Shown: positions 6,511-31,861 of the stretch, one piece after another
How the letters are laid out: each line of letters opens with the position of its first letter
How positions within the stretch are numbered: the stretch's first letter is position 1
Assembly: GCA_031264185.1 (NCBI GenBank)
Contig: JAISEL010000063.1
Coordinates: forward strand, 1-33,826
Source: Deltaproteobacteria bacterium
Lineage (GTDB): Bacteria; Desulfobacterota; Desulfarculia; Adiutricales; Adiutricaceae
Direction: 5' to 3'
DNA: 33,826 nucleotides
Notes under the pieces: model-generated
The model's input: the letters and a program-made list of their open reading frames with translations, nothing else
Database searches by the model: none
What the model was told of the DNA's origin: nothing
Translations under genes and position numbers: made by a program

Positions 6511-8079
6511 TTAAGATCTGGTCAAAAATGCAGCAAAGTTGCCTTGTTCCGTCCCGCAGTCGGACAGTTCTGCGCTCCGGGCCGGTTTTAAAAAGGCCAG
6601 GAAAAATATGACCAGAGCCAGAAGAATTAAGAAAATGACAATATACTTAAGAGATTTCCTGGGTTGGCCGTTTTGGGGGGAAGAGCCGCTTAAACTTCGG
6701 CTGATACTGGTCAGATCGGAAGAAAAAAGCGAGGCATAGGGCTCGGCGTGTTCAAATATCCGGCCCAAAGAGGCCAGCAGGCTGGAGGCGTATTTGGTCA
6801 GCCCGTAGCGGTTATAGAGGCTTAAAGCCAGATTCCGGACAAGCAGGGCCACTTTCTGGACTGCGGGATTAAGCTTATCGGCTGTGGTGACGGCTTTAAG
6901 GAGTCCGCCCAATTCGTCAATATGAGGCCCTATTTCGGCAACGGGCATTTTCTTGTCCAGTTTGGAGGATATTTCCCTGGTCTTAAAAAGAACCACTGAA
7001 AGGAGCTGATTTAAGTAATCAGACATCTCCCTGGCCTGCTCGGTTATTTCCCGGACTTCCTTTTCCTGGGCCAGCCGGTCCAATAAGAGCTTGTCTTTTT
7101 CGGCCTGTTCGGCCACATCGACCACTTCGGCAAAAACTTCCCGCATCAGATCGGTTAAATCCTGGGCCAGAGCCAGAAAACCCCGGGTGTTGTAAGCTGA
7201 AAAAGCCAGTTCCCGGATTTTCAGGGCCACAGTCTGGCTTTGGTGGTGGTTCGCGCCCAGGCTTTTGGTCAGGAGCTGGAACGGCTGGGCCAGGCGGTCC
7301 CAGTCTTTAAGGGAACTGCTCAGGCCCTCTAAGTTAATGTCTGTTTTTCCCGGGGCATTGTCCCGGAAGTCATCAGGCGGAGGAAAGTCAATTCTGGAGT
7401 GGAGACGCAATACTTCGTCAAAAACGGTCTGAGCCTTAAGATGCAAAGTGTTTTTAACTTCCTGTTCGTAACTTTCCAGGAGCGCGGTCAGGAGAGACGG
7501 CGGGGGCTGGGTTCCGGACTGAGTGGACTTTTTGGTCAGAAGGGTAAGAAACTCCAGTTTCTGGGCCGGTTTCAACTTGGCCAGCTGATTTCGGACAGCT
7601 GCCAGAAAATAGTCCCGCCGTTCGTTAAGGTTGTCTTGGATCTGAGACAAGACGACCTGAGGCCAGCCGGATTTTTCCCTGGTCTCGTTAATGGTTTTAA
7701 GAAGCTCATCCGGCTTTATCTCGTTACAGGAACGGAATAAAATCAGGCAGTAGTCCGGAAGCCTCTCTTTGGCCTGAGCCAGAACCGAAGCCAGCAGATT
7801 GGCCCTGGCTAAAGGTGACAGTTCATCGTTAACCAGACAGGAATCCGGATCAGTCTTCAGTAAGCCAATAATATGATTCTGCTTTTCCGGGGCCAGTCCG
7901 GGCAGCCAGCTTATTTCTGCCGCCAGTCTCTGGCCGGAATTGAAGAGGTCCTGCCTGATCTGATCTAAGACCAGGTAGTTAATGGATCTGGCCATTTCTT
8001 CGATCTGCTCAAAAAGCTTGGCCGAGTCGTCATAAGGGCTTGAATTCAATAGATAAAAAGGATTTTTATATAATTCCAT
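6511..8079 (-). CDS. J-domain-like (HPD-less), tail-anchored partner of Hsp70/AAA cluster
   Basis: The protein has 522 residues. The N-terminal ~70 residues (NPFYLLNSSPYDDSAKLFE, then RLAAEISWLPG) have the NPF-L-x-P-x-DD layout seen in J-like domains found beside unusual Hsp70s. No HPD tripeptide, which DnaJ proteins need to stimulate Hsp70, is visible. The middle (about 100-460) is helical and coiled-coil-like, rich in L, E, K and Q. Near residues 479-497 is one strong membrane segment (YIVIFLILLALVIFFLAFL) followed by a ~25-residue tail, which suggests a tail-anchored protein with most of its mass in the cytoplasm. It is the last gene of the hsp70-AAA-this cluster, 48 bases after the AAA gene. 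The start ATG 8079 lacks a strong ribosome binding site. The J-like label is inference from pattern; the rest is unassigned. Confidence 0.6.
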   Translation of the reverse strand: MELYKNPFYLLNSSPYDDSAKLFEQIEEMARSINYLVLDQIRQDLFNSGQRLAAEISWLPGLAPEKQNHIIGLLKTDPDSCLVNDELSPLARANLLASVLAQAKERLPDYCLILFRSCNEIKPDELLKTINETREKSGWPQVVLSQIQDNLNERRDYFLAAVRNQLAKLKPAQKLEFLTLLTKKSTQSGTQPPPSLLTALLESYEQEVKNTLHLKAQTVFDEVLRLHSRIDFPPPDDFRDNAPGKTDINLEGLSSSLKDWDRLAQPFQLLTKSLGANHHQSQTVALKIRELAFSAYNTRGFLALAQDLTDLMREVFAEVVDVAEQAEKDKLLLDRLAQEKEVREITEQAREMSDYLNQLLSVVLFKTREISSKLDKKMPVAEIGPHIDELGGLLKAVTTADKLNPAVQKVALLVRNLALSLYNRYGLTKYASSLLASLGRIFEHAEPYASLFSSDLTSISRSLSGSSPQNGQPRKSLKYIVIFLILLALVIFFLAFLKPARSAELSDCGTEQGNFAAFLTRS

Positions 8080-8127
8080 GGTACTGTAAGTTTAACCGCT
8101 GGCCATAGAGAAGTCAATAATTTGTCC

Positions 8128-9516
8128 TCAGTCCGGTTGGCGAAAGCCGACTTTTCGGGGTTTCATTTCCTGGGGCAGAGATTTTAAGGCTTCCTCCAGG
8201 ATTTCCAAGTCAATAAAGCTCTGTCCTTTTTTGGCCGTCAGCCTGGCCGCTTCCCGGATCACAAAGGCCGAGTCGGACAGTGCCCGGCCGGTCAGACGCT
8301 CTGTTATCGGCCTTAAGTTCAGTTTAGGGTCATAGGGCAGTTTAGCCAGCAGGCAGGTTAAAAGAGCTTCTGTTTCTGCGGCAGTCGGGGGGCCGACTTC
8401 TAAAACATGGTCAATCCGGCCCCGCCTTAAGACGGCCGGATCTACTAAGTCTATGGCGTTGGTCATGGCCAGAAGCAAAACTTTGTTTTGGGGGGCTTGG
8501 GGAATAAGGCGCAAAAACTCGGCCACCTCTTCCAGATGATGGACCTGACTGCCGGCCGTCTGCTGCCGGCTGGCCAGAAAAGCCTCCATTTCATCCATTA
8601 TAATGACCGACGGGGCGGCTTTAACGGCCAGCTCAAAGACCTCGGCTATTTTTTGGCCCGTCTGGTGAACATAGGGACTGCCGATACTGGTTGAATCAAC
8701 GGAAAAAGAAGGCCAACCCAAAAAATCGACCAGCTTTTGGACAGCAAATGTTTTGCCGCAGCCTGGCGGTCCGTGGAGGACAACCGGAGCCGGAAAATCC
8801 AGGCCCACAGCCTGATATTTGGGCAGATTGAATATTATGTCCAGAATATGGTCTTTAAAAAAAGTCTCCAGTTCCGGACGGCCGGGCAGGGAGAATTCTT
8901 CCGGCGGCCGGTTTTCGGGGTACAGCCGGGGACCTGGCTCTTTTTTCTGATTATGCGGTTTGGTGAGCCCGGCTTGATTTATGATGTCAGTCAGCTCGCT
9001 CCGGTCAAGCCAGCCGACCAGCTGACACAGGCGGACAAAATTATCGGTCGAAAGACAAACCCCGCCGGTCAGCCAGGTGCCCAGAACGATGTCATCGGGC
9101 ACATTTTCGCTCTGGTCCGGGGAAGGCAGGAGCCGGTCCAATTCTTCAAAATAGACGGCCGAATGAAGAGACAGGTCCCGGTTTACGGACCGGGTGGCTT
9201 TTAAAGCCCGGGCTAAAGAAAGGGCCTCGGTTTCATTTGAAGGCCCTTTATGGCCGGCCAGACAAAAAATATCATTTCCGGCCGCGCTTTCCCAGGCATA
9301 GAATTCCCGGCCTAAAAATTCCAGAAGCCCCCGGCGGTTTTCTTTTAATAAGCCGGCTCTCTCCCAGCTTAAACTTAAGTTTTTCTCGGCTAAAAGGACT
9401 TTTTGGCCAGCATGGGAGGCAAAGATTTGCCAGCCGTCCCCTTTCTCCAGACAGGTTTCTAAAATTAAGCCGCCGGGCAAAACTTGGCCCACTGATACCC
9501 AACTGTCCTCGGTCAA
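8128..9516 (-). CDS. AAA+ ATPase of the Hsp70 cluster
   Basis: This 462-residue protein has a start codon TTG at 9516 with a GGGGGGA purine run about seven bases upstream. Residues 1-200 match nothing I recognise; the first 45 have a glycine-rich beta-strand look. The AAA+ module occupies roughly 210-440: Walker A GPPGCGKT (249-256), Walker B VIIMDEME (304-311), sensor-1 region LLLAMTN (347-353), arginine finger RRGR (364-367), and a sensor-2 helix region around SDSAFVIREAARL. This is the classic single-ring 'ATPase associated with various activities' type (FtsH/Cdc48-like core), probably a hexamer that remodels proteins. No protease domain is present. Its position between an atypical Hsp70 and a membrane-tethered J-like protein suggests a joint protein-handling task. 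Confidence 0.8.
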   Translation of the reverse strand: MTEDSWVSVGQVLPGGLILETCLEKGDGWQIFASHAGQKVLLAEKNLSLSWERAGLLKENRRGLLEFLGREFYAWESAAGNDIFCLAGHKGPSNETEALSLARALKATRSVNRDLSLHSAVYFEELDRLLPSPDQSENVPDDIVLGTWLTGGVCLSTDNFVRLCQLVGWLDRSELTDIINQAGLTKPHNQKKEPGPRLYPENRPPEEFSLPGRPELETFFKDHILDIIFNLPKYQAVGLDFPAPVVLHGPPGCGKTFAVQKLVDFLGWPSFSVDSTSIGSPYVHQTGQKIAEVFELAVKAAPSVIIMDEMEAFLASRQQTAGSQVHHLEEVAEFLRLIPQAPQNKVLLLAMTNAIDLVDPAVLRRGRIDHVLEVGPPTAAETEALLTCLLAKLPYDPKLNLRPITERLTGRALSDSAFVIREAARLTAKKGQSFIDLEILEEALKSLPQEMKPRKVGFRQPD

Positions 9517-9570
9517 TTTTCAGTCCCCCCAAAAATCCGCAAAATCAGTCGGCTGACTTTCTGTTCCAGT

Positions 9571-12063
9571 TTAAGCTTTGACAATATTGGCCGGATTCAA
9601 AATCTCCGCGTCGGCCGCCGGCCTGATTTGCCTGAGCGCCAGTTGGCTGACGATGCTGCGGAGCTCTTTGATATTGTCGTTTTTGACCAGAAGCCTTCCT
9701 TTTTCGATTAAAGACTCAAAGTCTTTCTGGTCAACAAACAGATGAGGCGAGGCCATGAGCCGGTTAAAGTTGTCAATGACATACCAGTCCTGGCGCCAGA
9801 GTATCCGGAAGTTCCGGTCCATGAGCCGGCCGAAGTGGCGCTCAAAATTCTGATCGTCCAGTTCAATGGACTTTTGGGCTTCTCCAACCATAAGATCAAA
9901 AGCCGCCGCTTCATTTTCTCCGGCTTTGTCCCGGTTATAGCGCTCAAAGCACTGGACGGCGCTGGCCAGATCTATTCGCCTGATCTCTTTTTGGTGATCC
10001 TTTCGGACTTTAGCCAGTATCCGTCTGGCTGCGTAGACATTTTCCATGGCCTCCTGAGCTTTTTCCGTTTCCGTTTCTTCCGGTTTGAGGTTTAAAGCCG
10101 AGGTCAGTTTCCGGCGGGCTTCCTCCAGTTTGGGCTCAAAGATCAGCCTGTTTATAAGTTCAATCCGCTCTGAAGTTTTGTGAGCTTCTTCGGCCACCCG
10201 GAGCGAGGCGGTCGTAAAATCAATCTGACCTTCCTGGGGGGAATAGAAATTGCGGCCCGATCCGAATGTGCCGTGAATGCACGGGACGGAGATTTCCAGG
10301 TGAATATGGCCGGAATCTAAAATCTCATAGTCGCAGACCAGATCGGCTCCCACCGGGATAGCCGAGTCTTTAAAGTCCTCTCCGGAGATTTTCAGAACTC
10401 CGATGGCCCTGTTGTCGGTAATAGGGTTTTCTATTTCTCCCTCCCAGATATTAAAATTTAAGGAAGTGTCCTGGCCGGCCCGGAGAGATTCGGCGGCATG
10501 GAAAATCTTGCGGCCTTTTTTGGGCAGACTTTCTCCGGCCCTGACTAAAAAATCAAGGTTGGATTTTCCGTCCGGCTTTTCCAGAACCTCAATGCTCAGG
10601 GAATGGGAGGCCGGGATAGATTCCACCGAAACCCGGGCCCGGGTGATGACGAGACGGTCCTCGTTTAACGGCAGAGCCTGGCCGGAGGCCTCAAAAACAA
10701 AGACTTTGAATGTATTGGCGCCGTATTTGGCCAGACTGACCGCAACTTCCGAACTTTCGGCCAGAGGTTTCCGGCCGCTAGTCCAGCCGGTATCCGAACT
10801 GTCGACCTGAAACTCGGCCCCTTTAGGAGGATTGGCCAGAGTCAGAATGATACCGGCCCTGGCTTCAGTGGTCCGGTCGGGGTACCTGAAGACCAAAGGC
10901 AGCCTGCCTTTGGAGGAGTGCTTCCGGCGGACTCCTTTGAGTCCTCTTTTGGGGGAGTCCCAGTCGACCGATTCGGCTAAGACACTGGCTCCCTCGGCCA
11001 CTGCCGTCATGGGGTTAACCTCGGAGGAGCCTTTAATGCCCAGCTCAAAGGCCACTTTGTCCCGCAGCGGCTTATAGCTCGTCGGGCCGCCGATAAAGAC
11101 TACCTTTTCCAGTTCTCCTGGCTTAAGTCCGGCTTTGTCCAAAGTTTCCAGGGCCGCCTCGACTGATTCGTTAATCTGCCGGGCTATGAGACTGTCATAT
11201 AAAGTTCTGGACAGGGGGATATCAAGGTATATTTCTGTGCCCTTAAGATCCAGTGCCCTGGCTTCTGACTCGGCCAGAGAGATGGCGGTCTCGTTTTTAG
11301 AGGACAGCTCAATTTTGGCTTTTTCGGCCGCCCAGGCGGCCAGCCGGTTTAAAGCTTTAAATTTAGGATTTACGGCCAGATCCTCGGGCAGACTGAAATT
11401 ATCATGCAGCCATTTTCTGACTAAACTTTGAACCAGAATCCGGTCAAAATCCCGGCCGCCGCAGAAAGCCAGTCCGCCGTGGGCCAGAAGCTTAACCCGG
11501 CCGCCTAAAGCCTCCGCCAGGGCGATATCCAAAGTTCCGCCGCCTAAATCGTAGATCAGAAAAAGTCCGTCTATGGGTCCGGCTCTCATGACGCTCATGA
11601 CCGCAGCCACCGGTTCCTGCATTAAAGCGATCTTTTGAAGACCGGCTAAGGCAGCGGCTTTTTGGGTGGCCTCTTTTTGCATCTGGTTAAAGGCGGCCGG
11701 AACAGTCAGAACAGCGGCGGTCCGGTCATCGGACTGAATTTCTTCGGGCAGGTAACTGAAGAGGACTTTAATGATTTCAGCCGAACATTCCTGGGGGGTG
11801 AGGGTTTTTTCGACAGCCGCCAGCTTTACCGGAGTGCTGGTGCCCATGAGACGCTTAAACAGGAGGGCGGAGTGATCCGGACTGTGGGGAGCTGCGTCAT
11901 AGGCTCTTTGGCCGATATATTTGCGGCCCCGGCGATCTATGTAGATAGCCGAAGGGGTAATCTCCTTTTGGTCGGGATTTTTCCAGATTCTGGCAGCCAG
12001 TCCGTCGAAAGAGGCGATGACACTGTTGGTGGTGCCCAGATCTATTCCGATGTAGTGTTTCAT
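9571..12063 (-). CDS. Atypical Hsp70-family chaperone with long C-terminal extension
   Basis: The protein is 830 residues, much longer than DnaK (~640). The N-terminal ~375 residues form an Hsp70 ATPase domain: phosphate-1 loop IDLGTTNS (6-13), VPAAFNQMQKEAT, phosphate-2 loop IYDLGGGTLDIAL (~168-180), adenosine motif FIGGPTSYKPLR (~320), then NPMTAVAEGASV. After that the usual DVTPLSLGIE linker and substrate-domain signature are absent. A basic linker (KRGLKGVRRKHSSKGR) leads to two beta-rich segments, then a helical region from about residue 620. This fits specialised Hsp70s of the HscC/DnaK-like type rather than housekeeping DnaK. ATG 12063 has GGAG eight bases upstream. It heads a three-gene unit, with the AAA gene 54 bases downstream. 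The client is unknown. Confidence 0.85.
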   Translation of the reverse strand: MKHYIGIDLGTTNSVIASFDGLAARIWKNPDQKEITPSAIYIDRRGRKYIGQRAYDAAPHSPDHSALLFKRLMGTSTPVKLAAVEKTLTPQECSAEIIKVLFSYLPEEIQSDDRTAAVLTVPAAFNQMQKEATQKAAALAGLQKIALMQEPVAAVMSVMRAGPIDGLFLIYDLGGGTLDIALAEALGGRVKLLAHGGLAFCGGRDFDRILVQSLVRKWLHDNFSLPEDLAVNPKFKALNRLAAWAAEKAKIELSSKNETAISLAESEARALDLKGTEIYLDIPLSRTLYDSLIARQINESVEAALETLDKAGLKPGELEKVVFIGGPTSYKPLRDKVAFELGIKGSSEVNPMTAVAEGASVLAESVDWDSPKRGLKGVRRKHSSKGRLPLVFRYPDRTTEARAGIILTLANPPKGAEFQVDSSDTGWTSGRKPLAESSEVAVSLAKYGANTFKVFVFEASGQALPLNEDRLVITRARVSVESIPASHSLSIEVLEKPDGKSNLDFLVRAGESLPKKGRKIFHAAESLRAGQDTSLNFNIWEGEIENPITDNRAIGVLKISGEDFKDSAIPVGADLVCDYEILDSGHIHLEISVPCIHGTFGSGRNFYSPQEGQIDFTTASLRVAEEAHKTSERIELINRLIFEPKLEEARRKLTSALNLKPEETETEKAQEAMENVYAARRILAKVRKDHQKEIRRIDLASAVQCFERYNRDKAGENEAAAFDLMVGEAQKSIELDDQNFERHFGRLMDRNFRILWRQDWYVIDNFNRLMASPHLFVDQKDFESLIEKGRLLVKNDNIKELRSIVSQLALRQIRPAADAEILNPANIVKA

Positions 12064-12066
12064 TAA

Positions 12067-13304
12067 AAATTCTCCATCGGCCGCAGTTTAAACCGGGGAA
12101 ATGGCGCTCCCTTTCTGGTAACCGAAACAAAGTATTCGTATCTGTCTTCTTAATAAGGTGTCCGCAGGCATAACCAGGCGGTTCCGGCAGACAGAGCGTC
12201 TGTTGGTGCCAGCTGGGGGCTTTTTTTAACTGCCAGCAGGTACGGGTCTCAGGGTCTTAAAGACAGCAAAAGCCGGCTGGATAGCCTTTTGCGCTTACTG
12301 AACCGAAAAATCCGGCCAGAATTGACTGACCTCACGGACTTAAAAAGTAAAATTTTTATAACTAAGAATCAAAGCAAGGGGGTTGAAAAAATTCGGCCCG
12401 GATATTTCTGTCTTATGGCAGGTTAAAAAACTGCCCTGGGCTGGTTTGATAAATGTAAATGAATTTTAAGACAAAGCTTAGGCGAGATCAAGTTTTAAGT
12501 CATGATGTTATATATTTTTTGGTAAAAAAACAACATTAGATAGATATTTTGTAAATTTTTTTGTAATGAATTTTAGTTTTCCCGATTTTTTACGGACTAA
12601 AACGCTTTTCTAAAGGGCCGTATAGGAATTAGGGCCTGCTCTGGGCTCAGGGGCTGAACATGAAATCTAATTAAAGAATATCTGTCCGGCAATATGCTCC
12701 TGCGGATCATGAAATACAGACGGCCGCTGGGCCATTTTTTTGACTCAGGCGCAAAAAAAACACCCGGTTTGAGGGAGCTATATATTAAGGGCGAGTTGCG
12801 TAAGCTGCCCCGATCTCACGAACAGGAGGCGCTTGATCCGAATATCCGCTGAACCATTACGGGCAGTTCAAAAAGGTCCAGAGACAATTAACGCATAATC
12901 AACCAGGAAAAAGCTGGCTATGCTAAGGGGTGTCAGCTTAAAGGCAGGCAATAGTTACGGTATTGCAGTATTCTCAGATTTATATGCCGTGGTTATATGC
13001 CATCTCAGTTCAACACAGGAGCTGAACTTGCCTCCTCCCTTAATTTTTGCCATGCCGTTTTAAATGAGAAATCAGCGGCAGCCGCATTTTTACGTTTTTC
13101 AAAAAAATCTTCAGCTCCTTCGCAAGAAACAGCCGGAGGCCTGAAGACTTAACTGTTCCTGAAACCTTATCTCTTCCGCAGACTGCCGCTCACAGGCCTG
13201 TTATTTTTCTGGGAGGCAATTTGAATGGAACAGTATATTACCTCGGCATCTAATTCTGAGAATGCTGTAGTACTGTTTCTATTACAGGTTTTGAGCTAAT
13301 CCTC
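12067..13304. other. 1.2-kb gene-free region
   Basis: No convincing gene was found on either strand. The stretch starts with the 5' leader of the Hsp70 gene, is AT-rich around 12340-12600, and then becomes mixed. A 6-bp inverted repeat, AGTTCA/TGAACT (13007-13012 and 13023-13028), is present. The minus strand around 12630-12830 stays open for ~60 codons, but with no start and no recognisable family. I see no clear promoter for the Hsp70 gene by motif. Confidence 0.5.
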
Positions 13305-14948
13305 TCAGAGTTTCGCGCCGTGGTAATATTTCCTCTTTTTTATAGCCGTCAAGGCTTCATTCAAGGCCTTCGCCAGTATTTTCCTTCCGTCTTCCTCTTT
13401 ATGGTTGAGAAGTTTTTCCCTGTATTTCACCTCAGAGATCAACCGCCCCCGTTTTTCAGAAATGAGGTCATATCTATCCGGCCTCTGGACGCAGTCATCT
13501 CATCAGCAGTCATCTCATCATGGGTTTCTATCCCCGTGGGCCTAAGGAAGCATTGATTAGCGCACGGTAAAAGTGTTCACCGGGTATATGATAATAATAG
13601 ACCCCGGAAAAAATATTGGTGAAAAGAACGGCGGTTTGTTCCGAATTCCGTTTGGCCAAAGCCTCTAGAAATTCCTGCCGAAATGAGTCATATTTTGCAG
13701 TACTGTAATCAAAGATGGTTTGAAATAAAAAGGCGTTGCAGGAACTTTTGACCTCTGTGCTGGGGAGTCTGAAGTAAAAGTGTTCAGCATCAGCTATTTC
13801 TCCGTCTGAAGTCTCAGGAACAGTCCAGCTGCGATCAATTGTCAGGCAGCCGCTGTGAAACAGGATCGGCACAGTTCCCAGTTGGCGAAGGCCGGCTTTA
13901 CGAACAGTTTGTCAGAGATAACCAGCCAGTTTGAGTTGGATAAAATCATAAGGTTTTTCCCTGATAAGAGCGGTAAGATGAGAGGGCTGTCCGCTAAAGG
14001 GCCAAAAGGCGGAGAAATTTTTGGTCATGAAGAAATAAAGTATGGAGCAGGAATTTAAAATTCTCTACGGACCGGGTCAATTGCAGCCGCCGTTCCAGCT
14101 TAGAATTTTTTTCCGTAAGTCTTTAACTTGAGCCCCCTGTTTCATCTTCCCGTTATCCGCCATAATTGCAAGAGTCTCAGCTATCCTGTCTCTGAAAGAA
14201 TCGTCTAATTCCGGGATCGTGAAACCGCAGATGCCTGCGTATTCAGGGCCAAAGGACAGATCATAAAAATAGTTAGAGCCGGAATCCATGGCAGTGTAAG
14301 CGAATCCGGAGATGCCGGCGACGAAGGCAAACCGTGTGTCTTTAATGCTGTTTTTAAAGCCAGAGTAAAAGTCGCGGAGAACCCTTCTGCTGCCAGAAGC
14401 TATTTCAGAGTTTCCAATATGTCTGGCCACAGGAGCGTCATGCCCGTCAGACAAAATGACTGCGCCTGCGCCGTATTTCTGTTTAAGCTTTTTAAAAAGC
14501 TCTTCCACAATTAAGTCAATATCTTCTTTAGTTTATGGTTACATCCTCATCAAAGGCCACGTCATTCAGAGCCCCAATTACAATGGACTCCAGTTTTTCC
14601 GGGCTGTTGGCCCTGGCGCAGTTCATCCTGAGCCGGACGACCGGATGTCTCAGGAACTCGCAGCCCAGGGGTTCAGTCTTAAGCCCCGGAAAAGATCTTT
14701 GCTGCCCAGGAATAATTCCTCAATAATGTCAAGCAGGAGAGTTTTCCCGTTTTCCCGAATCGCCTGGGACGGGAGAGAAAACAGCTCTTGGTATGACTTT
14801 TGAGCAAACTGGAAATGCAGCCGGTTTTGTCGGCGTACAGAAGGCCTGACTCAATTATTTCCCTAAATGACATGTCCGGTACAGGCAGTTCTTTGATGAT
14901 TAATTTCCTGGGCTTTACGTCCTCCAAGGCAAGGTAAAAAATTTTCAA
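13305..14948 (-). pseudogene. Decayed AAA-ATPase-like / PD-(D/E)XK protein
   Basis: Translated pieces in several minus-strand frames join in order into one protein of the AAA-ATPase_like plus C-terminal PD-(D/E)XK nuclease (DUF1703) type. From 14948: SFREIIESGLLYADKTG and a P-loop remnant FLSRPRRFGKT; then ELFLGSKDLFRGL; then RHPVVRLRMNCARANSPEKL; then VEELFKKLKQKYGAG with HDAPVARHIG and LSFGPEYAGICGFTIPELDD; then SGQPSHLTALIREKPYDF; then VPILFHSGCLTIDRS and AEHFYFRLPSTEV; and finally RPDRYDLISEKRGRL with EVKYRE (nuclease core), ending KKRKYYHGAKL at TGA 13305-13307. Frameshifts lie near 14760, 14690, 14525 and 13530, with nonsense codons at about 14077, 14067 and 13907. The intact family averages ~500-550 residues. 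It cannot make a working protein. Confidence 0.88.
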
Positions 14949-15775
14949 TGATCCAATATAATTTTATCTTATCCCAAGTAAAAATTTACTTTGGTTATAG
15001 ATTATAGATTATATGGTTGGGAATAAAATTTGACCATAAAAATGGAAATTTTATATGCTATAGTGTCTAACATTAACATTAATATTGTATAAAAATAAAT
15101 TAATATCTAAAATTTGCCATAATCACTCCCAAGCTCAGACTCCAGCCGTTAGTCCGGAAAATACCGCGCCTATGGTTTCTGCAGCAAGGCAGGAAGATAT
15201 CCGAATTTTGGGGCTGGGAGTCTTCGGTAACGGACTGGAGCGGCAGCGCCTGAAGCCCATGCCGGAATCGTCAGGATCGACAGGTTCTTTCCCGGATTCA
15301 AGACCTGTTACGTCTGCTGATCTGGGGCAGGTGAACTTGATTTGAAGATCCGGAAATGGAAATGCCGTAAGGCGGCGCCGTCATGACCGCAGTAAAAAAG
15401 CCGAAGCTTCCGGCAGTTCTGGTCAGTCCGGTCCGGCCGTGGTCAGACTTGACCGCCGAGCCTGGGGAATGAAAAAACCCGCCAAAGACTATTTGAAGAC
15501 AAAAGGTCTTCCTGACTCCGGATTCAATCAGTTTTCCCGAACGAACGGCTGTATTGGGGTTTTAATGTCAGCCCGGCGCCTGATCCGAAGTCAGGCCTTT
15601 TTCACTTTGACAGCCCTGCTGTCATCTCTCTCCTCGAATATCAAAGGGAATGGTCAGGCGCCGGGTTTCGGGCGATGCTGTCCCTCCTGAGGTAAAATTT
15701 GACAGGCGCGTCCTTTTTGTAGAAAATTATTTAATGATATCCAGGCTTTTAAGGTGTAATTTCCAAGGAGATGGT
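14949..15775. other. Intergenic region before the VIT/vWA gene
   Basis: The first ~150 bases are very AT-rich, and the pseudogene promoter may have been there. Plus-strand frames at 15085-15345 and 15439-15690 show no recognisable motif and no ribosome binding site, so I do not call them genes. A TTGACA at 15699-15704 lies 72 bases before the next start codon. Confidence 0.45.
15699..15727 (+). promoter_or_regulatory. Weak promoter candidate for the VIT/vWA gene
   Basis: A consensus -35 TTGACA (15699-15704) is followed after 17 bases by GAAAAT (15722-15727), a poor -10. The spacing and position, about 50 bases before the ATG at 15776, are suitable. The weak -10 keeps confidence low. Confidence 0.35.
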
Positions 15776-18001
15776 ATGCCTGTTTTTAAATATTTGTTCG
15801 TGTTTCTGGCTGCTTTGTCTCTGGCCGGTCCGGCCTGGGCTCAGGAATCCAAACCCAGTCCAATGAACGACATGCTTCCTCCGGTTCTCCCTCCCGCAGC
15901 TCAGGCCGAGTTTTACTCTGTGGAAAGACTGGAACTGGATATCAAGATTGACGGCCAGTTAGTGCGGGCTGTTTTGCGGCAGACTGTCCGCAATACCGGT
16001 GCAAGTCTTTTGGAAATGGATTATCTGGTTCCTTTACCAACGGAAAGCGAGATTTCGGGTCTGATTTTATTGGCCGACGGTCAGGAGCTGGCCGGAAAAA
16101 TATACGACCGAAAGGAGGCTTTCGCCGTCTACCAGCAAATTGTCCAGCAGATAAAAGATCCGGCCTTAATGGAATACGTCGGGCGGGGTCTTTTCCGGGC
16201 CCGGATTTTTCCCATACCTCCCAAAGAAGCCCGCACTCTGGAACTGTCCCTCCAATACATGCTGCAAAAAAAAGACGATGTCTTAACCTTGAATTTTCCT
16301 TTGGCCGGGCCTCTGACTAAAGGAAAAACCGTATCCAATCAGGAAGTTAAGGTCTCGCTGGTCAATGTTCCCAATCTGGCCAATGTCTACTCGCCGATTT
16401 CCGGGGTCGAGGTGGAAGAGGGCGAGGAGGTTAAAGTCAGTTATTCGGCTGAATCCAGTCCGGCTTTGGATAATTTTCCGCTCTACATCAAGCAGCAGGA
16501 AGGCTCCCTTGGGGCCATGATCTTAAGTCACAAACCCGATGACAAAGAGGACGGCTATTTTCTTTTTTTGGCTGAGCCGTCTTTGGCTGAATCCGATGAA
16601 GCCTTTGAGACAGGCAAAGAAGTGATTTTCGTTTTGGATACTTCGGGGTCCATGGTCGGCAAGAAATTCGGGCAAGCGGTCCAGGCTCTGAAATTTGTTC
16701 TGGAGAGGCTCAAGCCGGAAGATTCTTTCAATTTGGTGGATTTTAATTCCAGGGTGTCCTCCTGGGCAAAAGAACCCAGAATCATGACTCCGGAAAACCG
16801 GAAGCAGGCTTTAGACTACCTCAGTAATTTAAGAGCCGCTGGCGGCACCAATATTGAAAGGGCTCTGACTGAATCTTTGAAGATGGCCGGCCTTCAGGGC
16901 AAACCCACGTATTTGCTTTTTTTGACTGACGGTGAGCCTACAACAGGCAAGACCGGCGAAAAAGAACTGGCTCTGCTAGCCCAAAAAAATAACCAGAAGT
17001 CAGTCAGGATTTTTTCCTTCGGTGTGGGTTTCGGAGTTCAGGCCAGGCTTTTGGACCGCCTTTCCGGGGATGCCGGCGGGATAACTGTTTATGTGAATCC
17101 GGAAGACAATCTTGAAGATAAAGTGGCGCTTTTATACTCCAGACTGGAAAGTCCTGTCTTAACCAATCCGAAGCTGACTGTTGACCTGAAAACCAACCGC
17201 TTAATTCCAGGAAAAATGCCGGATATTTTTCAGCATAATCAAACCCTTGTTGTGGGCCGCTATCCGGCCGGCGGATCTGTAAAATTCACCTTAACCGGTC
17301 AGGCGGGCGGGAAAAGCCAGGAATTCACCTTCCCCGGGGTTCTGGCCAGGGAGTCGGATCCCAACGGGGAATTTGTTGAACTGCTCTGGGCCCAGCGCCG
17401 GGTGGGCGAGATTGTTGATTATATAGATCTTAACCAGCTCAAAGACGGCCCTGAGTTTGAGGAACTGGCCGGAGAACTCTTAACTTTGGCCAAAAAATAC
17501 GGGATTTTGACTCCTTACACCAGTTTTCTGGCCTTGGAGAATATCAGTTTGACTGACAACCGGGCCAATGCCAGGGCGGTAGGCAGAAATTTGGATATCA
17601 TCCAAGAAGTCACCGGTTCTTCGGCTACCGTCCAAAGGGGCAGAAAACAAGACTTAATGGCCGCCGCCGCGCCGATGAAACCTGTTCCGGAGGCTGAAGC
17701 CAAGGCTCAGTTTGAGGCAATGGCTGACATGGATATGGCTGCAGCCGGTTCCGGCGATAAAATGATTCCGCCAAAGCAGCTGGGCAGTAAGAATTTTTTT
17801 CTCAAAAACGGCCAGCTCATGGACGGATCTTTAACCGAGGCTGATTTGAAGAAAATTGTGGAAATTGAACAGTTCAGTCCAGAATATTTTGTTTTGGCCG
17901 GCGAAGTAGCTCCGGAGGGCAGCTCTTGGTTAAGCCAAACTACCCCGGTGGTTTTTAAGCACAAAAGCAAGGTTTATCTGATTAAGCCGGTTGCTTCATA
18001 G
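15776..18001 (+). CDS. Secreted VIT + von Willebrand factor A domain protein
   Basis: The true start is ATG 15776, behind AAGGAG (15765-15770). An in-frame upstream extension to 15650 has no such site and would bury the signal peptide. The 741-residue product opens with a Sec signal (MPVFKYLFVFLAALSLAGPAWAQ). Residues ~42-170 form a VIT (vault/inter-alpha-trypsin) domain: FYSVERLELDIKIDG, MDYLVPLPTES, YDRKEAFAVYQQ and FRARIFPIPP. A vWA domain follows with MIDAS motif DTSGS at Asp288, TNIERAL and LTDGEPTTG. The C-terminal part contains a short NFFLKNGQLMDG module typical of bacterial VIT/vWA proteins. The pairing resembles inter-alpha-trypsin inhibitor heavy chains. It probably binds protein ligands through a metal in the periplasm or outside. 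There is no C-terminal anchor or sortase motif. Confidence 0.85.
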   Translation: MPVFKYLFVFLAALSLAGPAWAQESKPSPMNDMLPPVLPPAAQAEFYSVERLELDIKIDGQLVRAVLRQTVRNTGASLLEMDYLVPLPTESEISGLILLADGQELAGKIYDRKEAFAVYQQIVQQIKDPALMEYVGRGLFRARIFPIPPKEARTLELSLQYMLQKKDDVLTLNFPLAGPLTKGKTVSNQEVKVSLVNVPNLANVYSPISGVEVEEGEEVKVSYSAESSPALDNFPLYIKQQEGSLGAMILSHKPDDKEDGYFLFLAEPSLAESDEAFETGKEVIFVLDTSGSMVGKKFGQAVQALKFVLERLKPEDSFNLVDFNSRVSSWAKEPRIMTPENRKQALDYLSNLRAAGGTNIERALTESLKMAGLQGKPTYLLFLTDGEPTTGKTGEKELALLAQKNNQKSVRIFSFGVGFGVQARLLDRLSGDAGGITVYVNPEDNLEDKVALLYSRLESPVLTNPKLTVDLKTNRLIPGKMPDIFQHNQTLVVGRYPAGGSVKFTLTGQAGGKSQEFTFPGVLARESDPNGEFVELLWAQRRVGEIVDYIDLNQLKDGPEFEELAGELLTLAKKYGILTPYTSFLALENISLTDNRANARAVGRNLDIIQEVTGSSATVQRGRKQDLMAAAAPMKPVPEAEAKAQFEAMADMDMAAAGSGDKMIPPKQLGSKNFFLKNGQLMDGSLTEADLKKIVEIEQFSPEYFVLAGEVAPEGSSWLSQTTPVVFKHKSKVYLIKPVAS

Positions 18002-30472: not shown

Positions 30473-31661
30473 CTACATCCCGCATTGGCTGATTACTGTG
30501 GTGATGGCAGTTTCTAATCCTTCAGGCGGGTACTTATATTTTTTCAGCAGCTTCTTAACCCGGCGGCGCATGCCGGCCCGGGCCGATTCCTTTTTCTGCC
30601 AGTCAATGGAGCGGTTGATTCGGAGCATCTTAGTCAGTTCCTGAGTCATGGCCACCAGCTGGTCATTTTCATAGAAGTCTTTGATGGCCGCCGGTCTGGT
30701 CAGGGCGTCACAGAAGGCCAGTTCTTCTTAGGACAGACCCAGCTTTTTGCCCTCGGCGTGGGCGTTGGCTATGTCTTCGGCCATCTCCAATAGCCTGGCG
30801 ATGACTTCTTCGTTGGTCAGTAAGCCGTTGAAGTAAGCTTTCATGGTCCTGGACAGCATCTCAGAAAATTTTTCCGATTTAACCACGCTGGTCCTGCGGT
30901 AAGAAGAGACCTGATCTGCCGGAAGCTTTTTCAGAATTTCCACTGCCAGGTTTTTTTCCTTCATGCTGGCTATTTCGGTCAGAAAGACCGGGTCGAATAT
31001 TGAAAAGCCGGTGACTGCATCGGAGAAAAGATCAATAACTCCTTCACTTTTAATGGTATTTTTTAAAAATTCATTGATATAGGCATTCAGTTCTTTGAAA
31101 TTAAGTTTATGGCTGTCTCCGGTTAAGCGGATTAAAGACGTCCTGACTGACTCAAAAAAGGCGGCCTCGAAACGTTCCTTATGCCCCACAATGGAACTGC
31201 ACAGAGACAAAGACTGGCGCAGAATTTGAGCTTCTTTCACAAAGGTTTCCTGCTGTTTTAGTTTTTTTACGGCTGACAGAAAATTGACTCCGCCATTGAT
31301 TATTTTAGTCCGGTCATAATCGGAAGCTTTATCGCTCAAGAAAGCCGAATAATTGAAACCGTGGAACAGGTCGCGGCAGACTTCGAGTTTTTCAGTGAAT
31401 TTCGGCAGGACGGTCTTGGCAATGTCAATTTCGCCGTAGTTTTGGCGATCGCGCCGGGTGTAGTCCTTCATGGCCTGTTTTAAGGCTGAGGCAATGCCGA
31501 TGTAATCCACTATCAAACCGACTTCTTTCTGGACAGCGGTGCCGTTGATCTTGTGGGTGAAAACGCGGTTGACCCGGGCAATGGTCTGCATTAGGTTGTG
31601 AGCGGCGGCGATCGGCTTGTAGAGATACATGGCGACAGGCTGGGAACATCGAAACCGGTTT
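30473..31661 (-). pseudogene. hsdR: C-terminal remnant of type I restriction HsdR
   Basis: The last third of a type I restriction R subunit is readable from about 31630: [20 protein letters not shown] (helicase motif VI region), [48 protein letters not shown], then the DUF3387-type tail (LCSSIVGHKERFEAAFFESV, GVIDLFSDAVTGFSIFDPVF, KEKNLAVEILKKLPADQVSS, SEKFSEMLSRTMKAYFNG, NEEVIARLLEMAEDIA). At 30728-30730 an in-frame TAA stands where Glu is expected (GLS*EELAFCDAL). The same frame then continues to the natural end (RSIDWQKKESARAGMR, KYKYPPEGLET) at TAG 30473. The N-terminal nuclease and most helicase motifs are gone. It cannot function. Confidence 0.9.
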
Positions 31662-31861
31662 GAGTTCCTGGAAGCGCTCCTCAAATTTGTCCGAAATGTA
31701 CTTCAGAAAGATGAGGCCGAATACAATGTGTTTGTATTCGGCCTCATCCATATTGCCTCGAAGGATATCTGCCGCCGACCAGATTTTCTGCTCAAAGCCT
31801 ATGGAGGCTGTACCGTCTGAGGCTCCTTTTTTGTCTCCCTGGCTGTCAGCTCTACACCCAT
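31662..31861 (-). pseudogene. hsdM: N-terminal remnant of type I restriction HsdM
   Basis: About 45 recognisable residues of an HsdM methylase N-terminus remain: [20 protein letters not shown] followed by [20 protein letters not shown] and RFQEL, then loss of homology at about 31662, where HsdR sequence begins in another frame. Upstream, an A6 run at 31825-31830 separates this frame from one beginning [12 protein letters not shown] at 31861; a slip there may have cut off the start. The methyltransferase catalytic part (NPPF/Y) and hsdS are missing, so this and the hsdR remnant are two ends of one operon joined by a deletion. Confidence 0.8.

Follow-up and report, generated by a model that had tools for sequence, protein, structure and literature searches.

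A conserved Hsp70, AAA ATPase and J-like protein cassette without the HPD contact in a Deltaproteobacteria bacterium

Background

The contact between an Hsp70 and its J-type partner has been described for DnaK, in which R167 and Q378 are contacted by D35 of DnaJ, the aspartate of the HPD motif, and the J proteins tested to date need this HPD contact with R167 and Q378 of their Hsp70 (PMC8215388). The HscC/DjlC pair of Escherichia coli provides a membrane-linked precedent with a suspected membrane role (PMC8215388). Type IV (pseudo) J-domain proteins, including Pam16/Tim16, have also been described (PMC13254874), and the GAP1-N2 systems are predicted conflict systems, centred on a GTPase and mostly actinobacterial or firmicute (PMC7159879). 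Here, a gene cluster at positions 6511-12063 of contig JAISEL010000063.1 (assembly GCA_031264185.1, Deltaproteobacteria bacterium) was analysed; the whole stretch of 33,826 nucleotides is called the window. The original prediction, made from the sequence alone, had proposed a unit of Hsp70, AAA ATPase and membrane-tethered J-like protein. The analysis revealed that these genes represent a shortened version of a cassette not named before, [GrpE-like]-Hsp70-AAA-J-like. Both sides of the standard Hsp70-J contact, HPD on one and R167/Q378 on the other, are lost together in the sequences of this family.

Gene layout and conservation of the cassette

The window cluster consists of three intact open reading frames (ORFs), all on the minus strand. 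The first encodes the Hsp70-family protein (830 amino acids, ATG start, 9571-12063), the second the AAA ATPase (462 amino acids, TTG start, 8128-9516) and the third the J-like tail-anchored protein (522 amino acids, ATG start, 6511-8079). The intergenic gaps are 54 bases between Hsp70 and AAA and 48 bases between AAA and the J-like gene, and the ORF list is in accordance with the predicted co-directional layout. Elsewhere the window genome encodes an ordinary DnaK and another Hsp70. The same genome has a second small Hsp70 set (G000:C65 33672-36344, minus strand), in which an Hsp70, a short J-domain ORF and a GrpE-family ORF adjoin each other.

Related loci were collected in named genomes using a profile built from the C-terminal part of the Hsp70. 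This gave 54 loci, two of which were dropped, one as a near-copy and the other for want of a readable Hsp70 ORF. The 52 loci kept span at least eight phyla (Thermodesulfobacteriota, Pseudomonadota, Acidobacteriota, Verrucomicrobiota, Synergistota, Bacillota, Cyanobacteriota, Bacteroidota and others), and many of them are bins of metagenome-assembled genomes. Within the phylum of the window, the cassette was present in 5 of 297 genomes drawn, the window genome being counted among the five. The genes co-occur in order across distant genomes: Hsp70, AAA and J-like gene follow each other on one strand in 32/32 AAA-bearing loci, with a Hsp70-AAA spacing of 3 bp at most loci. Such constancy of order and strand in all of these loci, across many phyla, puts the arrangement far beyond chance. 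The pairwise distances of the four families are also correlated (Mantel r 0.896-0.965, each pair above all 2000 permutations). The Hsp70 tree intermixes phyla and contains near-identical copies in different phyla, which would fit horizontal transfer; contamination of bins may account for some of this mixing. Neither phage records nor E. coli genomes, the latter examined with a near DNA search, gave a match to the cassette, and the open literature covered by the search, which leaves out most subscription papers, contained no description of it. As a separate observation, Mesosutterella multiformis (L055, L057) contains multiple tandem and broken Hsp70 copies belonging to the cassette family; its J-like proteins bear an internal transmembrane (TM) segment, and one of them shares a segment with periplasmic partner proteins.

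The complete unit holds a fourth gene, so the predicted three-gene functional unit is borne out by conserved order and co-divergence but is incomplete as it was drawn. Just upstream of Hsp70, 35 loci have a gene of some 125 amino acids, with a 4-nt overlap in most of them. Its product aligned with the GrpE profile over the beta domain (hhalign, E value 1e-4, probability 57) and, from this profile match, it is called GrpE-like. Pfam GrpE gave no match for the protein, and in a PDB search GrpE 4ani ranked second at a non-significant E value of 0.94. The gene was present in exactly 7 of 59 relatives, which are precisely the seven carrying the cassette Hsp70. It was not found in the region 5' of the window Hsp70 where relatives carry it (12067-13500, minus strand; six-frame hidden Markov model (HMM) search), nor in the whole window genome.

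Hsp70 and the J-like protein

The window Hsp70 shows 51-56% identity to its relatives over the full length. Its nucleotide-binding domain (NBD; residues 1-365, 10969-12063, minus strand) was delimited by Pfam and profile comparison, with PF00012 covering residues 5-364 (E value 1.6e-54). The Hsp70 had been predicted to be devoid of the usual substrate domain, and this was not upheld. A full-length hhalign comparison of the cassette Hsp70 with the DnaK profile gave an E value of 1.7e-48. The alignment gap placed an extra insert of about 110 residues (approximately 370-480, 10624-10956, minus strand, boundaries approximate) at the position of the DnaK linker, followed by a region resembling the beta part of the substrate-binding domain (SBD-beta; approximately residues 487-600, 10264-10605, minus strand) and by an additional C-terminal part. 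Because the DnaK SBD-beta alignment continues behind the insert, the substrate domain appears on sequence comparison to be displaced and not absent. The C-terminal part tested alone against the DnaK SBD gave a weak match (E value 0.0034), and a PDB sequence search with its profile yielded nothing significant.

The actin-like NBD residues D8, K70, E171, D194 and T199 (DnaK numbering) are retained in 43/43 family Hsp70s. In the same 43 sequences R167 is replaced by alanine, Q378 by phenylalanine, tyrosine or leucine, and N170 by glutamine, without exception.

The 522-residue protein gave sub-threshold matches alone in Pfam, PADLOC and NCBIfam scans, with no family above cut-off. Its first 50 residues matched a J-domain profile built here (hhalign, E value 1.9e-5, probability 77), while control profile comparisons gave E values of 0.57-0.61. 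In the AlphaFold2 model of the protein (predicted local distance difference test score, pLDDT, 89.6), helices 7-10, 19-29, 35-46 and 48-56 are arranged in the order of a J domain with a short loop. The J-like domain (residues 1-60, 7900-8079, minus strand) has no HPD motif in the window or in 50/50 relatives, and HPE is likewise found in 0/50. The J-like N-terminus that had been noticed is thus supported by profile and helix layout, but with HPD missing and the HPD-contacting residues missing from the Hsp70, the protein is not an ordinary J partner. A new contact in place of the HPD-R167 contact may be inferred. The J-like domain is followed by a helical-repeat region (residues 64-465, 6685-7890, minus strand), and fold searches of the whole model by Foldseek and VIA gave mainly helical solenoids of ARM/HEAT type. 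The 50 entries listed in this whole-model search held no J-domain chain, a result that is not informative on the J-like part. The PDB sequence search with the J-like profile returned nothing significant.

The predicted tail anchor was also recovered, as a TM helix at residues 479-497 (6589-6645, minus strand; model helix 478-496). The J-like protein is tail-anchored in the window and in four congeners, and a TM helix was found in 10 of 50 relatives. In other lineages the C-terminus is mostly different and without a TM helix, and the operon has an extra TM protein instead, often bearing a peptidoglycan-binding domain; a TM helix was found in 36 of 45 operon partner proteins.

The AAA ATPase

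The AAA protein was found to be a single module, in accordance with the predicted one-ring, non-ClpB architecture. It has one PF00004 match at residues 245-375 (E value 2.6e-26), and PDB sequence matches group it with Cdc48/AFG2-type ATPases. The Walker A (GPPGCGKT), Walker B (IMDEME), pore loop (SPYVH) and arginine region (RRGRID) of the window protein are conserved across 31 family AAA sequences. The protein therefore carries the marks of classical AAA proteins (Cdc48/PAN type), namely Walker A/B, a second region of homology with arginine finger, and pore loop.

The N-terminal domain (residues 1-190, 8947-9516, minus strand) was modelled by AlphaFold2 (pLDDT 87). Nearly all the Foldseek matches listed were protein kinases (best E value 5e-4). 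Catalytic motifs of kinases were not found in the N-domains, in which HRD is absent and four DFG strings among 27 sequences lie off the expected position, and a PDB sequence search with the N-domain profile gave nothing significant. With structural Z scores under 8, the kinase-like assignment of the model is taken as a lead. In a relative (L027/L048) the N-domain exists as a stand-alone gene of 214 amino acids between Hsp70 and the J-like gene. The AAA with kinase-like N-domain also occurs as a lone gene of about 500-700 amino acids away from any Hsp70 (L186-L195), often with a long charged linker. A ClpB-type partner was rejected on the basis of the one PF00004 match, the length of 462 amino acids, the absence of a ClpB family match and the single ring. 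IetAS was likewise rejected (NF042959, 70.7 bits against a cut-off of 510; no adjacent protease gene).

Mobile and defence setting

The cassette of relatives was repeatedly found in mobile surroundings. In Shewanella and Aeromonas plasmids it follows the TnsA-TnsE genes of a Tn7-like element, in Aeromonas simiae it likewise follows the genes of such an element, and it is also carried on conjugative plasmids. Two of the Tn7-like copies (L163 18339-22146 and L167 18465-22272) have several further genes of unknown function after the J-like gene, one of them coding for an RDD membrane protein; these are possibly an extended operon. On the Polaromonas plasmid pPNAP01 the cassette lies between zorA (Zorya) and brxD (BREX). 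In Desulfopila, 3 bp separate the end of the last operon gene from HamA (E value 6e-110), which is followed by HamB (E value 3e-260) of Hachiman. HmaC and the defence candidate PDC-S20 lie near two other cassette loci. A PADLOC scan of 156 neighbour proteins gave scattered matches and no enrichment is claimed. A possible defence role is thus supported in relatives by Hachiman, Zorya, BREX and Hma genes nearby and by carriage as Tn7-like cargo, but the window copy itself is outside any defence island and is probably an old chromosomal resident.

Six congeners are without the Hsp70 and AAA genes, and four of them (G001, G003, G004 and G005) retain the J-like gene, which in two of the four lies beside PGA_cap and MutS2. 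As the full gene order is the general one, the congeners most simply lost both genes.

Proposed mechanism and alternative explanations

The cassette is proposed to be a dedicated membrane-linked Hsp70/unfoldase machine, belonging to a conserved family spread by transfer, with a use in conflict or envelope surveillance; a probability of roughly 55% is given to this reading. The protein contacts, the transfer of client from Hsp70 to AAA and the biological use are what we infer from the observations above. The J-like protein would act as a targeting platform: at the inner membrane its helical body may bind a client or sensor, and the protein would recruit Hsp70 via a contact independent of HPD and R167. 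Such a contact could insulate the system from DnaK/DnaJ. The Hsp70 would then pass the client to the AAA ring, with docking by way of the AAA N-domain, and the client would be unfolded or disassembled. GrpE would reset the Hsp70, the role being taken in the window organism by the cell's own GrpE. A role in defence or at the envelope is probable; the most likely use would be conflict with mobile elements or phages, or envelope surveillance during such conflict. A more specific version, considered less likely than not, describes a new class of mobile defence machine. In it, an HPD-less J-like sensor would recruit to the membrane both the Hsp70 and the Cdc48-type unfoldase with its pseudokinase-like domain, through a rewired Hsp70-J interface that separates the machine from host DnaK/DnaJ.

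Several observations weigh against the proposal of a dedicated machine used in conflict or surveillance. In relatives the AAA and J-like genes also occur apart from the Hsp70, which means that the unit is not obligate. The window copy sits amid housekeeping genes (PGA_cap, MutS2 and histidine biosynthesis). The defence link comes from neighbours compared with no background rate and is suggestive only, and against known defence families the cassette proteins showed generic AAA similarity alone. On the structural side, the VIA matches of the AAA N-domain, all kinases among those listed, have modest Z scores (<=6.6), and the solenoid matches of the J-like body have modest Z scores within the range where a shared arrangement suffices.

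Among the alternatives, the one that survives best is quality control of envelope proteins in the manner of HscC with DjlB/DjlC, by which membrane proteins or their cytosolic domains would be maintained or extracted and the cassette would be mobile stress-fitness cargo, not defence. Cdc48-type AAA proteins extract proteins elsewhere, and the TM helix of the J-like protein, together with the TM and peptidoglycan-binding partner proteins of other operons, would suit such a task, as would the HscC/DjlC precedent (PMC8215388). The placement of cassettes beside Hachiman, Zorya, BREX and Hma genes argues against it, as do the intact J-contact residues of HscC and the lack of detectable similarity of DjlB/DjlC to the J-like family, and this alternative is considered unlikely. 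It is somewhat less likely again that the unit is a decaying remnant in the window lineage, with the J-like protein now acting alone or with DnaK. The missing GrpE-like gene and the congeners that retain only the J-like gene of the three are what decay would leave, but the three window ORFs are complete in length, the ATPase and pore-loop motifs are intact, and Hsp70 and AAA keep 62% and 48% identity to distant relatives. That three independently useful genes were clustered by chance or island sharing is very improbable, since constant order, strand and spacing across phyla and correlated divergence stand against the separate occurrence of AAA and J-like genes.

The significance of the dedicated machine would be twofold. 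A widespread family in which the HPD contact is lost on both sides and the Hsp70 ATPase residues are retained offers a natural test of HPD-free Hsp70 drive. If the defence link is true, a whole chaperone machine, carried as Tn7-like cargo and present in defence islands but absent from the defence catalogue searched, joins the known arsenal.

Other features of the window

Promoter and terminator scans gave results scarcely above shuffled sequence. An apparently truncated C-terminal fragment of the type I restriction protein HsdR (30728-31684, minus strand, PF11867 E value 8e-50) covers just positions 645-935 of the 1029-position PADLOC profile. A fragment of a PF09820 predicted AAA-ATPase (14077-14508, minus strand, E value 1.7e-8) lies in low-GC, gene-poor surroundings (about 12.1-15.6 kb), consistent with decay. 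On the plus strand, 15650-18001 encodes a VIT and VWA protein of 783 amino acids like the marine proteobacterial sortase-target proteins (TIGR03788 E value 3.5e-65, under cut-off).

Comparison with known systems

E. coli HscC is a diverged Hsp70 whose dedicated tail-anchored J-type partners, DjlB/DjlC, are encoded nearby, an arrangement like that of the cassette. Unlike in the cassette, DjlB/DjlC carry HPE, HscC retains R167, N170 and Q378, and no AAA is present; kinship of the J-like family with DjlB/DjlC was rejected, as no similarity was detectable. The DnaK-DnaJ-GrpE set with ClpB combines an Hsp70, a J-type protein, a GrpE-type factor and an AAA+ unfoldase in one functional set, comparable to the Hsp70, J-like, GrpE-like and AAA proteins of the cassette. 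However, ClpB has two rings and a middle domain, whereas the cassette AAA has one ring, of Cdc48 type, and a kinase-like N-domain, the cassette J-like domain has no HPD, and the cassette genes lie in one mobile unit. Pam16/Tim16 and other type IV proteins have a J fold without HPD, comparable to the J-like domain of the cassette; they too are linked to a membrane, and they work with an Hsp70 motor. Pam16 partners a true J protein, Pam18, whereas in the cassette no HPD-bearing J protein was seen and the Hsp70 is without the matching residues.

Two further likenesses come from conflict systems. The GAP1-N2 systems bring an HSP70, a GrpE and a J-domain fusion (DnaJ-FNIII) of their own, but the annotated genes next to the four plasmid cassettes examined include no GTPase. 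CnuD of CoCoNuT is an Hsp70-like protein in a defence setting (PMC11090510); it accompanies McrB-type GTPases and its ATPase motifs are degenerate, whereas the cassette Hsp70 retains all ATPase residues. The known systems thus share single traits with the cassette, and the full set is found in none of them.

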